This document shows, piece after piece, positions 53,141 to 58,637 of a stretch of 64,000 nucleotides of DNA. The stretch's first letter is position 1; every line of letters begins with the position of its first letter. The notes below the pieces were generated by a model. That model did not search any database and had not been told where the DNA came from. It saw nothing but the letters and a program-made list of their open reading frames with translations. Origin of the DNA: a bacterium (lineage in GTDB: Bacteria > UBA8248). Position numbers and translations under genes: made by a program. The stretch lies in NCBI GenBank assembly GCA_022828125.1, contig JAJEJD010000020.1, positions 310,001 through 374,000 on the forward strand, in the 5' to 3' direction.

Positions 53141-53172
53141 CGATGGAGACAAAAACGACGAGGAGGGGGAAA

Positions 53173-54123
53173 ATGGCGATACCGGATTTAGACTCACTTA
53201 TGCACGCGACGCTCAAAGCGCTTTCCGGAGGCGCTGAAATCCATATATCCAAAGTGCATGATTTCGTGGCCAAAGAACATGATGTTACGCCGGAGGAGCG
53301 TCAAGAAACATCTGCGAACGGTAAAACCCTAATCTTCGCAAATCGAGTGAATTGGGCGACTGCAGACCTCAAAGGGGCGGGATTGCTGGAAAGGCCAAGC
53401 CGAGGTTTTTGCCGCATCACGGCGGAGGGCGAAAAGGTGTTGGCCGATCCGCCATCCCGTATCGACAGAAAATTCCTTAAAACACTTCCTGTCTATATCG
53501 AATGGGCAAAAAAGTTGGCTGCAAGGAAAGAAGCGAGACCAAATGACGTCGAAGAGTTGGAACACAAGCTGGATATAGACATTAAATTGGGGACACCCGA
53601 AGAAATAGCGGAGCAAGCTGCACTGAAAATCAAAACCGCGCTGGAAACCGAACTGCTAGAGAGAGTCCACCAAGCGCCTCCCGAGTTTCTCGAAAGACTA
53701 ATTATCGATCTCTTGGGAAAGATGGGATACGGCGGTGGGGACTCAAAGATGGGGCGCGTAACCGGAAAAACCGGAGACGGGGGTATTGACGGAAAGATCA
53801 AAGAAGATGCGCTCGGTCTCGATGAAGTTTATGTCCAGGCGAAAAGATACGATCCTGATAAAGGAGTGGGGGCGGGCGATCTGCGCAATTTTGTGGGGGC
53901 AATTGACGGTGAGGGAGTAAGCAAGGGCGTGTTCGTCACCACCGCAAAATTCAATTCAAACGCCAAAGATTTTGCCCGCAAGACCTCAAAACGCATCATT
54001 TTGATAGATGGCGAAGAACTGGCCCGGCTTATGGTGGAAAACGACGTCGGAGTTCGAGAGAAAACGACCATCGAGATAAAGCGCATTGATGAGGATTATT
54101 TCGATTTGGAGGGCGGTTCGTAG
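53173..54123 (+). CDS. Mrr-type restriction endonuclease
   Basis: A 316-residue protein with an N-terminal winged-helix Mrr_N domain (about 1-95) for DNA binding and a C-terminal Mrr catalytic domain (about 165-290) of the PD-(D/E)xK fold. FLERLIIDLLGKMGYGG opens it, GDGGIDG (near 201-207) supplies the catalytic Asp, and VQAKRY (near 222) the QxK pair. Mrr enzymes cut methylated foreign DNA. A strong GGAGGGGG site precedes this ATG; the ATG ten codons earlier lacks one. No methyltransferase accompanies it, as expected for a type IV enzyme. Confidence 0.9.
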   Translation: MAIPDLDSLMHATLKALSGGAEIHISKVHDFVAKEHDVTPEERQETSANGKTLIFANRVNWATADLKGAGLLERPSRGFCRITAEGEKVLADPPSRIDRKFLKTLPVYIEWAKKLAARKEARPNDVEELEHKLDIDIKLGTPEEIAEQAALKIKTALETELLERVHQAPPEFLERLIIDLLGKMGYGGGDSKMGRVTGKTGDGGIDGKIKEDALGLDEVYVQAKRYDPDKGVGAGDLRNFVGAIDGEGVSKGVFVTTAKFNSNAKDFARKTSKRIILIDGEELARLMVENDVGVREKTTIEIKRIDEDYFDLEGGS

Positions 54124-54185: not shown

Positions 54186-54350
54186 TCACTCCCCCCTTGA
54201 GGGGGAGTCGAAGAGGCCGAGCGGTTTGTGCGAAGGCTGAATCGGTGGGGGGTAAAATACGTTTTATCACCATTCCGGATTATACCCCCCACCGAATCGC
54301 TTGCGGGCTTACGCCCTTAGCTCTTCGACTCCCCCTCAAGGGGGGAGTGA
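54186..54350. repeat. Palindromic repeat element A with 30-bp perfect inverted ends
   Basis: Bases 54186-54215 are the exact reverse complement of 54321-54350. Each arm is also self-complementary (ACTCCCC..GGGGAGT around CTTGA). A second nested inverted pair (GGTGGGGGGTA 54244-54254, TACCCCCCACC 54283-54293) lies inside the 105-base interior. It looks like a MITE-like or REP-type extragenic element between the Mrr and cupin genes. It has no coding capacity. Confidence 0.85.
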
Positions 54351-54814: not shown

Positions 54815-56020
54815 CTACCGCACTCCCTCCCCCGCCATGAAGCGCGCCACCTCCTCCTCCGGCCAGCCGAGCCACTCTCTCAACACCTCCGCCGTGTGCT
54901 GGCCGAGCAGGGGCGGCGGCTTCACATCAGCTTGCGCGCCGCTCATGATCCAGGGCGCGCCCACCACGCGAATCTCGCCCGAGACGGGGTGCTCGACGCG
55001 CTTGATGAGGCCGCGGTGCGCGACCTGGGGGTCCGATAGAGCGCGCTCGTAGTCGTTCACCGGGGAAAAACCCACGCGCTCGGCTTCGAGGCGCCGCTCC
55101 CATTCGGCCATCGTGCGCGAGGCGAAAATCGCAGACACCCGCTCGTTGATGGCGCCCCGGTTCGCGACGCGCGCCCGCGCGGTCGAGAAGCGCTCGTCCT
55201 CCAGCCAGTCTTCGATTTCCAGCGCGCGGCAAAAGCCCGGCCAGAAACCGTCGTGCTGCACGATGACGGTCACGTACTCCCCGTCGCTCGTGCGGTAGGT
55301 GTTCGCGGGCACGCGCATGGGGTTCTCGTTGCCGTGCCGGCCCGGCGACACGCCCGCCTGGAGCGTCTCGCCCATCCGGGGGCCGAGAGCGGCCACCATG
55401 GCGTCCTGCATGCTCACGTCGATATGGCGGCCCTCCCCCTCGCGGCCCGCGGCGTGGAGCGCGCTCACGATGGCGTAGGCCGAGAACATGCCCGCCAGCA
55501 CGTCGGCGAGCGGTGCGCCTATCTGGGTGGGGTCTTCGTTCCCCGTCACGCTCATGACGCCCGAGACGGCCTGTAGAATCGGGTCGAGCCCCACGCGGTC
55601 GCGGTAGGGGCCGCTCTGGCCGAAGCCCGAGAGCGAGCAGTAGACGATTCGCGGGTTCGCCGCGCGGGCGTCCTCCCAGCCCAGGCCGAGTTCGGCGAGT
55701 TTTCCGGGCGCCATGTTCTCGATGAGGGCGTCTGCCTCCCCCGCCAGGGCGCGCACGGCGGCGCGGCCGGCGTCCGTCTTCATGTTGACGGCGAAGCTCT
55801 TTTTCGAACGGTTGTTCGCATAAAAATAATCTTCGTGTTCCTCGCGGTCCTTGTAGCGGGTGATGCGGCGCGTATCGTCGCCGAAGCCGGGGCGTTCTAT
55901 CTTCACCACCTCGGCCCCCATGTCGGCCAGCATGGCGGCGCAGAAAGGCCCCGCGACGACTTGGGTGAAATCCAGCACCCGGAAACCGCTCAAGGGCGCT
56001 TTGGCTTGCGATTCGGACAT
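54815..56020 (-). CDS. CaiB/BaiF (family III) CoA transferase
   Basis: A 401-residue family III CoA transferase, which moves CoA between carboxylic acids through an aspartyl-CoA intermediate. The nucleophile is Asp146 in VGLDPILQAVSG. The N-terminal strand RVLDFTQVVAGPFCAAMLADMGAEV and NNRSKKSF are typical. It forms an interlocked dimer in the cytosol. It begins 116 bases from the end of the putative tRNA-Leu island and is probably the last core gene before it. Substrate not predictable. Confidence 0.92.
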   Translation of the reverse strand: MSESQAKAPLSGFRVLDFTQVVAGPFCAAMLADMGAEVVKIERPGFGDDTRRITRYKDREEHEDYFYANNRSKKSFAVNMKTDAGRAAVRALAGEADALIENMAPGKLAELGLGWEDARAANPRIVYCSLSGFGQSGPYRDRVGLDPILQAVSGVMSVTGNEDPTQIGAPLADVLAGMFSAYAIVSALHAAGREGEGRHIDVSMQDAMVAALGPRMGETLQAGVSPGRHGNENPMRVPANTYRTSDGEYVTVIVQHDGFWPGFCRALEIEDWLEDERFSTARARVANRGAINERVSAIFASRTMAEWERRLEAERVGFSPVNDYERALSDPQVAHRGLIKRVEHPVSGEIRVVGAPWIMSGAQADVKPPPLLGQHTAEVLREWLGWPEEEVARFMAGEGVR

Positions 56021-56461
56021 CTCTCCCTCAACGGATGGAACCGGCGCGATGAAGAGCGGAACGCCTCACCGCACAGGCTGTTTCAAAGACAGATGAATAT
56101 AAAAAATTTATTTTCAAATACTTAGCGTTCACTCATGGTACCCGGGGCTGGCATGAAACCATAGCCATAAATTACTGATTTTATTTATATTTCATATCCA
56201 GCTATTCATGTTTTCCCACTTTTTTCCCATTTCTTAAGCGGGAAAGCATGGGAATCTTCGCTCGTGAGGATGCCAGCAACCTTGAACGTGATGGGCCAAG
56301 ATTATCAGGAAGAAATGGAAATTTCCAAGCAGCGGGCAACATCTAGAGGAATCTTCAGGAAATCTTAATACGAAAGAGACCTATGTCCTTTTGAGACTCC
56401 CAAAAATCCATAAATTCAAGTGGATTGCGTAGTTATGGCTTGTTTTCTTAAAGTGAAACAT
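56021..56461. other. AT-rich gene-free stretch at the island edge
   Basis: No gene is supported. It contains the partial tRNA-Leu 3'-end copy (56136-56160). Between 56160 and 56460 base composition is clearly more AT-rich than flanking genes, with several short broken frames and no motif I can name. Confidence 0.6.
56136..56160. repeat. Partial direct repeat of tRNA-Leu 3' end (att-like)
   Basis: TGGTACCCGGGGC here is identical to 58248-58260, the CCA end and acceptor stem of tRNA-Leu. Matching continues imperfectly for 12 more bases (about 20 of 25 overall). It lies in the same orientation, 2112 bases from the tRNA copy, as expected for attachment-site duplication by an integrative element. 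Confidence 0.65.
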
Positions 56462-56671
56462 TCAATATATCCTGCCTTTCTTCAGTTTTGATTTGACATA
56501 ACGAGTCCACGGCTTCTTGCTATTCTGCTCCAAGCATTTACGAAGAAGGGGAAACTGAGCGGGACCGATTTCACAACCGATAGTACCAAAAGGCAGCGTT
56601 TCTCCGAAAGTTTCCTCCCATTGCTTCCCGATTTCAATCATCTCCTGGAATTCTTCGAATGTCATACTCAT
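56462..56671 (-). CDS. Small hypothetical protein in putative island
   Basis: A 69-residue protein with a good GAGGGG ribosome site seven bases before its ATG. It opens with an amphipathic acidic helix (TFEEFQEMIEIGKQWEETFG) and ends with a basic tail (YVKSKLKKGRIY). No family is recognised. It is the last gene on the reverse strand of the putative island, 48 bases after the 337-residue gene, and may belong to the same transcript. Confidence 0.6.
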   Translation of the reverse strand: MSMTFEEFQEMIEIGKQWEETFGETLPFGTIGCEIGPAQFPLLRKCLEQNSKKPWTRYVKSKLKKGRIY

Positions 56672-56719
56672 AATTCACCCCTCATAGCTACGGCATTGAT
56701 CGATTTCTTCTAATTCACA

Positions 56720-57733
56720 TCACGAATCAACAGCTTCACCAGCGGCATACTCCCGCACCTCGCGTGCTCTCGTGTCCCCCAGACTGATGACCCGTGTCAC
56801 CTCGATCGATTCGTTCTTCGGCAGTGGCGCTTCCCCTTTCTCCTCGCCGGTCTGCTTTACACTCTTCAGGGTCTTCAGAACGTCACTCCCTGAAACGGCC
56901 TTTACTTCGGCATCATAATAATCGAACCACGGGAGACCGGCATCGGTGTAGTCCCTGGCTGTGGGCGGCTCAATCGGCGGCCGCTCGCCCGTGATCGCCA
57001 TCCACTGGGCGGAATTGGCGATGGTGACGAAACACCGGCTGGGATGCCGCTGATCCCAGGCATCCAGGCCATAGGGGTCCTCATAGATTTCCTGCTTCAT
57101 CCGGCCGCCCGGGGCCAGACCCATGGCTATCTCGTCGGGGCTTTCCAGAACGATACCCTGTGCAGCCTCGTCTCTGATCATTTCTTCATAACGCTCACGC
57201 TTCATGGGATAGGCCACGATCTGCAAGCCCCCATGCTGCGCGGCGCCCCGTAACTGCTCCTCGGCCGTGTAGCCCTCACCCAGGGGCATGGCCACGAACT
57301 GGCGGACTATCCCTTTTTCGACGCAGTAGCCGTCTAGCCAGGGCTGCTCGGGCAACACGAGGTAGTCCTGCGGATCGGTGTTCAGGTGCTCCACCCAGTT
57401 CTCGCCGGTGAGCGCGCAGATTTTTCCGGTCGCGATCTTGATCGCAAACGGATAGGAGAAATGGCCGCTGTATCCCGCATCGAAATCCATCCACAGGGCC
57501 TCGGCCTGGAACATCGGCATAATCACGCCGCCTCGGCGGAGCCACTCCCCGGGCAGGCGCGCTGCGTAGTCGTCCAGATGACGAAGGGGAAAGCGACCCA
57601 GACCCGGGGGCAGGAAGTAATCTTCCCCATCGTCCGGGATGCGAAGGGTGCGCTGGAACTCGATCGAGCACCGGGCGTGGTCATGAACCTCCGGGCACCG
57701 GATATCCAGGCAATCGTTCTCAAGAATGATCAT
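56720..57733 (-). CDS. Unrecognised 337-residue protein paired with an XRE regulator
   Basis: A soluble protein without signal peptide or membrane segments. I do not recognise its family. Visible features are an N-terminal Cys-containing segment (ENDCLDIRCPEVHDHARC), a compact middle with several Trp and Tyr (QAEALWMDFDAGYSGHFSYPF, LVLPEQPWLDGY), and a charged C-terminal tail. A very strong AAAGGAGG site lies before the ATG. It starts 12 bases after the XRE gene, so both are one operon. No catalytic motif is obvious. Confidence 0.8.
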   Translation of the reverse strand: MIILENDCLDIRCPEVHDHARCSIEFQRTLRIPDDGEDYFLPPGLGRFPLRHLDDYAARLPGEWLRRGGVIMPMFQAEALWMDFDAGYSGHFSYPFAIKIATGKICALTGENWVEHLNTDPQDYLVLPEQPWLDGYCVEKGIVRQFVAMPLGEGYTAEEQLRGAAQHGGLQIVAYPMKRERYEEMIRDEAAQGIVLESPDEIAMGLAPGGRMKQEIYEDPYGLDAWDQRHPSRCFVTIANSAQWMAITGERPPIEPPTARDYTDAGLPWFDYYDAEVKAVSGSDVLKTLKSVKQTGEEKGEAPLPKNESIEVTRVISLGDTRAREVREYAAGEAVDS

Positions 57734-57745
57734 CAGAATCCTCCT

Positions 57746-58099
57746 TTACCAGTCTCCGTCCCGCACCTCGCGCACCACCCGGAGGATGGCGTCATCGGGC
57801 GCCTCTCTCATCTGGCGGATCAGCTCCGCGAACAGTTTCGGCCTTTTGCGGATAATCTGCTGCAGGTCGCTCGATACTTTCCCCGCCAGGGCCAGCAGCA
57901 CATCCGGGTCCTCGCCCAGTTCGCGCGCCAGCTTTATCGTCGTGGCCTCAGAAGGCGGCGCCACGTCGCCGCGCTCGATCTTGCTCAGGTAGGCCGGCTC
58001 GACGCCTATCCGCTGCGCCACCTGGCGCAGAGAAAAGCGCCGGTCTTCTCGTCTGAGGCTTTCACGTTGGGTTCGGATGGTACTTCCAAAATGTGTCAT
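57746..58099 (-). CDS. XRE family helix-turn-helix regulator
   Basis: A 117-residue DNA-binding protein. The Cro/C1-type HTH spans about residues 8-62, with FSLRQVAQRIGVEPAYLSKIERG as helices 2-3. The C-terminal part (DLQQIIRKRPKLFAELIRQM) is a helical dimerisation-like extension ending in REVRDGDW. It has no ribosome site; its ATG coincides with the predicted transcription start of a TTGACA promoter, so a leaderless mRNA is likely. First gene of the putative island operon and probably autoregulated. Confidence 0.88.
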   Translation of the reverse strand: MTHFGSTIRTQRESLRREDRRFSLRQVAQRIGVEPAYLSKIERGDVAPPSEATTIKLARELGEDPDVLLALAGKVSSDLQQIIRKRPKLFAELIRQMREAPDDAILRVVREVRDGDW

Positions 58100-58105
58100 A
58101 TATAG

Positions 58106-58134
58106 AACATAGTATACATATCGTTTTTTGTCAA
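58106..58134 (-). promoter_or_regulatory. Promoter of the XRE operon
   Basis: On the reverse strand a perfect TTGACA (58134-58129), a 17-base spacer containing the palindrome GTATAC, and TATGTT (58111-58106). The start point is predicted at or within a base or two of the XRE ATG (58099). The AT-rich spacer and -10 region would be the natural place for an autoregulatory operator. Confidence 0.65.
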
Positions 58135-58247
58135 GTTTTTTATGTCTCCAGCGGGGAAAACCGAAAATAAAGACCCGGCAAGTCTCATATTTTCAATTAT
58201 TTATGATGGGTATTCGGATATTCGCGGAACATCAGAAAAAGTGTGTC

Positions 58248-58333
58248 TGGTACCCGGGGCCGGACTCGAACCGGCACGGCCTCTCGGCCAAGGGATTTTA
58301 AGTCCCTAGTGTCTACCATTCCACCACCCGGGC
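58248..58333 (-). tRNA. tRNA-Leu (anticodon UAA)
   Basis: On the reverse strand the acceptor stem GCCCGGG (from 58333) pairs with CCCGGGT, including the G1-U72 pair known from E. coli tRNA-Leu(UAA). The anticodon loop CTTAAAA gives UAA at 58300-58298. The long variable arm of class II tRNAs is present, the T loop is GGTTCGAGTCC, and CCA is encoded (58250-58248). It forms one boundary of the putative island. Confidence 0.97.
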
Positions 58334-58637
58334 AGGTGCGGGGAGAATACCCCACCCGGCGGCGTTTCCGCCAGTTTCATAATTCTTGGGAGGGGGAAAA
58401 CCAACAAGGGAGCGGGAGGAGCAGCTTACGGGGATTTTCAGGGGTAGAGGAGACGCCCCCCTCGGCTTGAAAACCAACCCCCCCTACCCCCCCTTGACAG
58501 GGGGGTATGAAAAGGCGACGCCCGCCGCCGGTAGAGGGGCTTTTGTTTTTTCTTGCCCCCCTGTCAAGGGGGGGTAGGGGGGGTTGCCTTTATCCTCTGA
58601 GGAGGGAGGCTTTTCGGGCGGCTCCGGCCCTGAAACC
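58334..58637. other. Gene-free stretch holding palindromic element B
   Basis: No gene is supported between the tRNA and the LVIVD-repeat gene. A GGCGG/CCGCC hairpin lies just upstream of the tRNA, and the large inverted repeat at 58476-58585 fills the middle. Poly-C and poly-G runs dominate the composition. Confidence 0.6.
58476..58585. repeat. Palindromic repeat element B with 30-bp perfect inverted ends
   Basis: Bases 58476-58505 are the exact reverse complement of 58556-58585, around a 50-base interior. Each arm can also fold on itself (poly-C, TTGACA, poly-G). The arm core CCCCCCTTGA is shared with element A, so they belong to the same class of extragenic palindrome. It has no coding capacity. 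Confidence 0.85.

Follow-up and report, generated by a model that had tools for sequence, protein, structure and literature searches.

The window analysed here, the whole 64,000-nt stretch of contig JAJEJD010000020.1 (GCA_022828125.1, lineage Bacteria; UBA8248; forward strand, 310,001-374,000), carries a tRNA-Leu(UAA) gene and, on its 3′ side, a partial copy of that gene's 3′ end. Does this copy mark the far end of an element inserted into the tRNA gene? If so, how was the element inserted, does it still move, and what does it carry?

The tRNA-Leu(UAA) repeat and the interval it bounds

ARAGORN and Rfam (RF00005, E 7e-11) identified an intact tRNA-Leu(UAA) gene with an encoded CCA on the minus strand at 58248-58333, its 3′ end lying at 58248. 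A same-orientation copy of the last 25 nt of this gene (58248-58272) lies at 56136-56160 and agrees at 20 of 25 positions, the first 13 all included, confirming the partial copy proposed in an earlier sequence-only reading of this DNA. Apart from the tRNA itself, this was the best match to the 25-mer in the whole window (runner-up, 17/25), and 2000 Markov shuffles of 3 kb never produced a 20/25 match. The 13-mer proved not to be frequent: it occurs at only two places in the 3.9-Mb genome, both at this locus. The unique 13-mer, the weaker runner-up and the shuffle control together indicate that the repeat is real and above chance. That it arose by chance or tRNA decay beside native genes could be argued from the mere 13 exact bases in the window's own genome; besides the 13-mer uniqueness and the shuffle control, a perfect 19-mer in one relative (G005) and an empty site in another (G001) speak against this reading. 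Unless the G001 contig is faulty, its junction has already refuted it, and we give it next to no probability.

We assigned the tRNA-proximal att core CCGGCCCCGGGTACCA to 58248-58263 (minus strand), 16 bp that are identical to the G001 attB and to the distal copy in G005, where the core extends to 19 bp. The distal core copy (56136-56151, minus strand), at which the G001 empty site joins, has one mismatch to the tRNA 16-mer. Between the att copies lies a 2112-bp cassette with three ORFs only, encoding an XRE regulator, a 337-aa protein and a 69-aa protein at the lengths first reported. Its AT-rich parts are two non-coding arms, with 38% GC on the left (56152-56461) and 35% on the right (58100-58247), as against 57.7% for the window. 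The first ~57 bp of the left arm are conserved in G005, and the arm recurs at 74% after a joint in G002; the right arm, beside the tRNA 3′ end, is conserved in G002, G003 and G005. As previously read, the interval lacks an integrase: neither integrase nor relaxase was found there among the ORFs or by Pfam and PHROGs, PF00589 also being absent, and Rfam detected no family in it besides the tRNA. The native chromosomal flank (56021-56135) lies beyond the distal copy, and in G001 it directly adjoins the tRNA.

Other features of the window were also recorded. C-rich inverted repeats at 58470-58591 (44 nt, 91%) and 54186-54350 (30 nt, 100%) look like short dispersed palindromic elements; the former is also present in loci L033 and L034. 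An Mrr-type restriction endonuclease gene (PF04471; PADLOC type IV) lies at 53143-54123, ~2 kb from the island, and G005 has one too.

Forms of the locus and their history

We compared seven genomes of the genus, G000 (the window's genome) to G006; the locus was not obtained from G004 or G006, and all sequences compared are draft genomes, several of them MAGs. In G001, homologues of 54815-56151 and 58248-58396 are joined directly and share nothing but the core. The resulting sequence, GTTCGAGTCCGGCCCCGGGTACCATGCGCAAACGCTAAG, reads from an intact tRNA into native flank, so the empty site that the sequence-only reading had said should join 56135 straight to the tRNA does exist in a relative. Both ends are present in G005, where the repeat is a perfect 19-mer, CCGGCCCCGGGTACCATGC. 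The XRE and 337-aa genes of G003 sit right beside the tRNA, with the left end missing and 56080 joined to ~56690, and G002 has the same left joint (56080|56690). The distal att site carries a mutation in G000 and has been lost by deletion in G002 and G003.

Finding these genes beside the tRNA where its copy is missing had been named in advance as evidence against an insertion. Such an arrangement does occur in G003 and at the left end in G002, and is accounted for by a deletion: the loss took 56081-56135 with it, 55 bp of native flank that G000, G001 and G005 retain, so that the left end of these two genomes is a deletion and not the ancestral state.

G002 also contains a second junction, which reads on the tRNA strand TTCCATA-CCGGCCCCGGGGCGCCATGC-CGCCGTTTTCCG, that is, right arm, core and left arm in succession. 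This is the form expected of an attP or circular form, or of two tandem elements; unequal crossing-over or an assembly fault could also have produced it. The joint is followed by a moved liv transporter block and then by native-type flank beside the tRNA. We considered the 9.5-kb block in G002 as a normal second element and rejected it, as it consists mostly of an 8.6-kb liv block found elsewhere in G000 and G003. This liv-type ABC transporter block (L032:6860-15439; L203; L204) lies at a different genomic position in each of G000, G003 and G002, and its ends are nearly identical in all three.

The G001 empty site, the G005 19-mer and the attP-like joint of G002 strongly support the attL/attR geometry of site-specific insertion into a tRNA gene. 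The G001 site could alternatively stem from slippage between short repeats or from replacement by an empty allele. We consider it probable that the locus holds a 2112-bp, att-flanked cassette that was inserted site-specifically into the 3′ end of tRNA-Leu(UAA), lacks an integrase and is now mostly resident. In this proposal, the cassette would have entered through a crossover in the 16-19-bp core that left the tRNA intact and a core copy at the far end. The enzyme would have been a site-specific recombinase, most likely a tyrosine integrase, which either came from another element or has been lost since. The insertion would date from around the diversification of the genus; afterwards the cassette would have lost its left end in G002 and G003, formed the tandem or circular joint in G002, been exchanged with its locus by homologous recombination and disappeared cleanly from G001.

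Divergence of the cassette bears on this timing. Its dS among G000, G002, G003 and G005 (0.19-0.36) equals that of two flanking genes (0.18-0.43), suggesting that its residence at this place goes back roughly to the time when the genus began to diverge. Within the genus, dN/dS was 0.07-0.16 for the XRE gene and 0.21-0.32 for the 337-aa gene. Both genes are under purifying selection and the cassette is not visibly decaying; the "decayed element" suggested at first does not fit a cargo with ratios of 0.07-0.32.

The other suggestion was a minimal satellite mobilised in trans. It would still be mobile, with a helper integrase of the same tRNA-Leu specificity driving excision and integration. G005 retains an intact att pair (a perfect 19 bp) and G000 a nearly intact one, and both the attP-like joint and the clean absence in G001 would suit such movement, as would the many tyrosine recombinases of the genus and, in G014, an integrase fragment beside this tRNA. 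Against it, the divergence of the cassette matches that of its flanks, its arms were found in the genus only at the tRNA-Leu locus, no genus member examined has an integrase at this tRNA, and the distal att site is damaged or lost in three genomes. We therefore regard a currently mobile satellite as improbable.

Presence of the cassette differs even between closest relatives. Genome-wide markers gave the sister pairs G001 + G003 and G005 + G006, of which G001 lacks the cassette and G003 has it. At the tRNA-Leu locus, G003 is nearest to G000 (94% in the CoA-transferase) and not to its genome-wide sister, and for this reason we propose that the locus was probably exchanged by homologous recombination. 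One could go further and assume a single ancient insertion, after which the cassette moved only by homologous recombination across its flanks, the G001 empty site being an imported allele. The local proximity of G003 and G000 agrees with this, as does the 56080|56690 deletion joint common to the non-sisters G002 and G003. Homologous exchange alone, however, leaves the att repeat and the G002 joint unexplained, and it overlaps with cassette insertion rather than excluding it; we rate it as a real possibility, somewhat short of an even chance. The att-flanked cassette thus appears to be an old insertion, mostly resident and cleanly lost from one lineage, and not a satellite that jumps freely. 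The simplest account of its absence from G001 is a loss, for which recombination between the two core copies and the import of an empty allele fit the data equally well.

In G014, which belongs to another genus of the family, a tyrosine integrase is represented by a C-terminal fragment directly at the tRNA-Leu(UAA) 3′ end (L239:4082-4495), indicating that an integrase once sat at this site in the family; relatives 45-61% identical to it occur in G016, G007 and G011. On a contig of G010 (C246, L237:3931-6075), a YeiH-like exporter gene (PF03601) is flanked by two partial tRNA-Leu(UAA) 3′ ends at a distance of 2.1 kb, possibly marking another integrase-less cassette of the same site. Repeated use of this site within the family is probable. 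Any of the many other tyrosine recombinases of the genus could be the source of the enzyme. Many tyrosine recombinase genes in G000 (C2, C9, C19 and C22) and its relatives lie in adjacent pairs ~1.2 kb apart, like multi-recombinase elements.

The XRE-337 gene pair

All three cassette genes lie on the minus strand. The XRE/HTH regulator gene (57746-58099; 117 aa; Pfam HTH_31, E 5e-11) is the first of a pair, and its product is 83-97% identical in the nearest loci. The second gene (56720-57733) encodes the 337-aa protein, which database and structure searches placed in an uncharacterised, widespread family. The 69-aa gene (56462-56671) evolves fast: a 45% identical ORF is present in G005, and no counterpart was found in G002 or G003.

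Searches of Pfam, PADLOC, NCBIfam and the PDB sequences with the 337-aa protein were negative, PHROGs gave no more than an insignificant fragment, and none of its 80 aligned relatives matched NCBIfam. An AlphaFold2 model built with 80 sequences (pLDDT 85, pTM 0.84) gave no Foldseek match in the PDB at E < 0.001. Among predicted viral proteins, its best matches were uncharacterised giant-virus proteins (Harvfovirus, E 4e-21, TM 0.65-0.71), hinting at a family that crosses domains. The predicted fold also matches uncharacterised Hyperionvirus proteins. As the largest, family-less protein of the element, the 337-aa protein might itself be the recombinase. Its relatives mostly lie away from tRNAs and without att repeats, and neither a recombinase fold (Foldseek) nor a recombinase family was matched, which makes this hardly credible; the model supports an old fold of uncharacterised function and argues against a known recombinase.

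A promoter-like TTGACA-17-TATGTT motif lies upstream of the XRE gene (58106-58134, minus strand), overlapped by a degenerate (13/18) copy of a palindromic operator, GTGTACTATGTAGTACAC. Of 58 loci, 55 match at least 13 of the 18 palindrome positions at the start of the XRE gene, compared with 8 of 1160 control stretches, and a TTGACA box often lies upstream. Across loci, the HTH gene thus has a conserved operator at its promoter, as in an autoregulated unit, the window's copy being degenerate. The layout is that of an autorepressed operon with a predicted operator: the XRE protein would probably bind across its own promoter and start codon, thereby controlling how much of the 337-aa effector is made.

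One scan of representative genomes yielded 80 relatives of the 337-aa protein from many phyla, with a homologous XRE gene upstream in the same orientation in about 60 of the 80 loci. Fifteen further copies came from viral contigs, one phage and one plasmid, with XRE present in nine, and the pair was found on large-phage contigs. In the 337 tree, the genus groups with loci labelled Latescibacterota and Gemmatimonadota (73-74% identity), and starred branches part it from G017, a genome of the same family. On the basis of this placement, the cassette most likely came horizontally from outside the bacterial family, the closest relatives of the pair beyond the genus being members of other phyla. 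The nearest named genomes are labelled Nitrospinota MAGs. No family was shared among the neighbours of the pair in 41 loci, so that context gives no function.

A search for the same genes at other tRNA loci had been suggested as a check. The pair does lie near some tRNAs (L040-L043, tRNA-Arg; L058, tRNA-Met; L060, tRNA-Leu), but none of these loci has convincing att repeats, and the association with tRNAs is therefore not general. The closest relatives outside the genus (L040:7014-7138, L041-L043) lie 50 bp-1.4 kb from the 3′ end of tRNA-Arg(UCU) without an att repeat, a link that is only suggestive. A tRNA-Arg(TCG) remnant in L040 and L043 was rejected as an island end, being a local deletion of the 5′ part of the tRNA.

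We tentatively suggest, as a reading that may well prove wrong, that XRE-337 is an unrecognised, self-contained and autoregulated mobile pair (a new toxin-antitoxin, defence or host-takeover system) spreading between phyla, plasmids and large phages, and that in this family, along with other small cargo such as the YeiH-like exporter, it travels in integrase-free cassettes bounded by tRNA-Leu(UAA).

Comparison with known systems

XRE-controlled two-gene units of the toxin-antitoxin or CapH/C-protein type have the HTH gene first, the effector second and an operator over the promoter, and they spread horizontally. The XRE-337 pair has the same order, a predicted operator over its promoter and horizontal spread, and PADLOC gave a weak CapH hit; it differs in that the putative 337-aa effector belongs to no known family and has no PADLOC match. 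We regard this pair as the more interesting part of the element. The cargo points to a conserved, uncharacterised gene pair across many phyla and large phages that is now directly testable.

Phage satellites of the PICI type have an integrase plus replication or packaging-interference genes, none of which Pfam or PHROGs detected in the cassette. The tRNA-targeting islands of the Islander type (PMC4383910) resemble it in that a regenerated target and a displaced fragment mark the ends and that a precise empty site exists, but the cassette is without a tyrosine integrase of its own. Island finders that require an integrase would miss such cassettes. Similarly, the ssrA-linked tandem islands of Dehalococcoides are bounded by ~20-bp repeats of one RNA gene's 3′ end; sixteen of them carry a serine-recombinase integration module (PMC3146451), whereas none is known for the cassette.

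A CIME (cis-mobilizable element) retains att sites and lacks integration and transfer genes (PMC5704250). Likewise, the cassette keeps attL and attR without such genes and sits at the 3′ end of a tRNA gene, and tandem accretion, a known behaviour of CIMEs, would explain the G002 joint. By contrast, the cassette is small (2.1 kb), its cargo is under selection and no parent ICE or IME is known, the only candidate trace of one being the G014 integrase fragment, which lies beside this tRNA but in another genus. The cassette fits the structural definition of a CIME and would work like an att-bounded passenger, with current mobility possible. Taken together, the occupied, empty and joint forms within one genus indicate that precise insertion and long-term retention are possible for a 2-kb element lacking an integrase.
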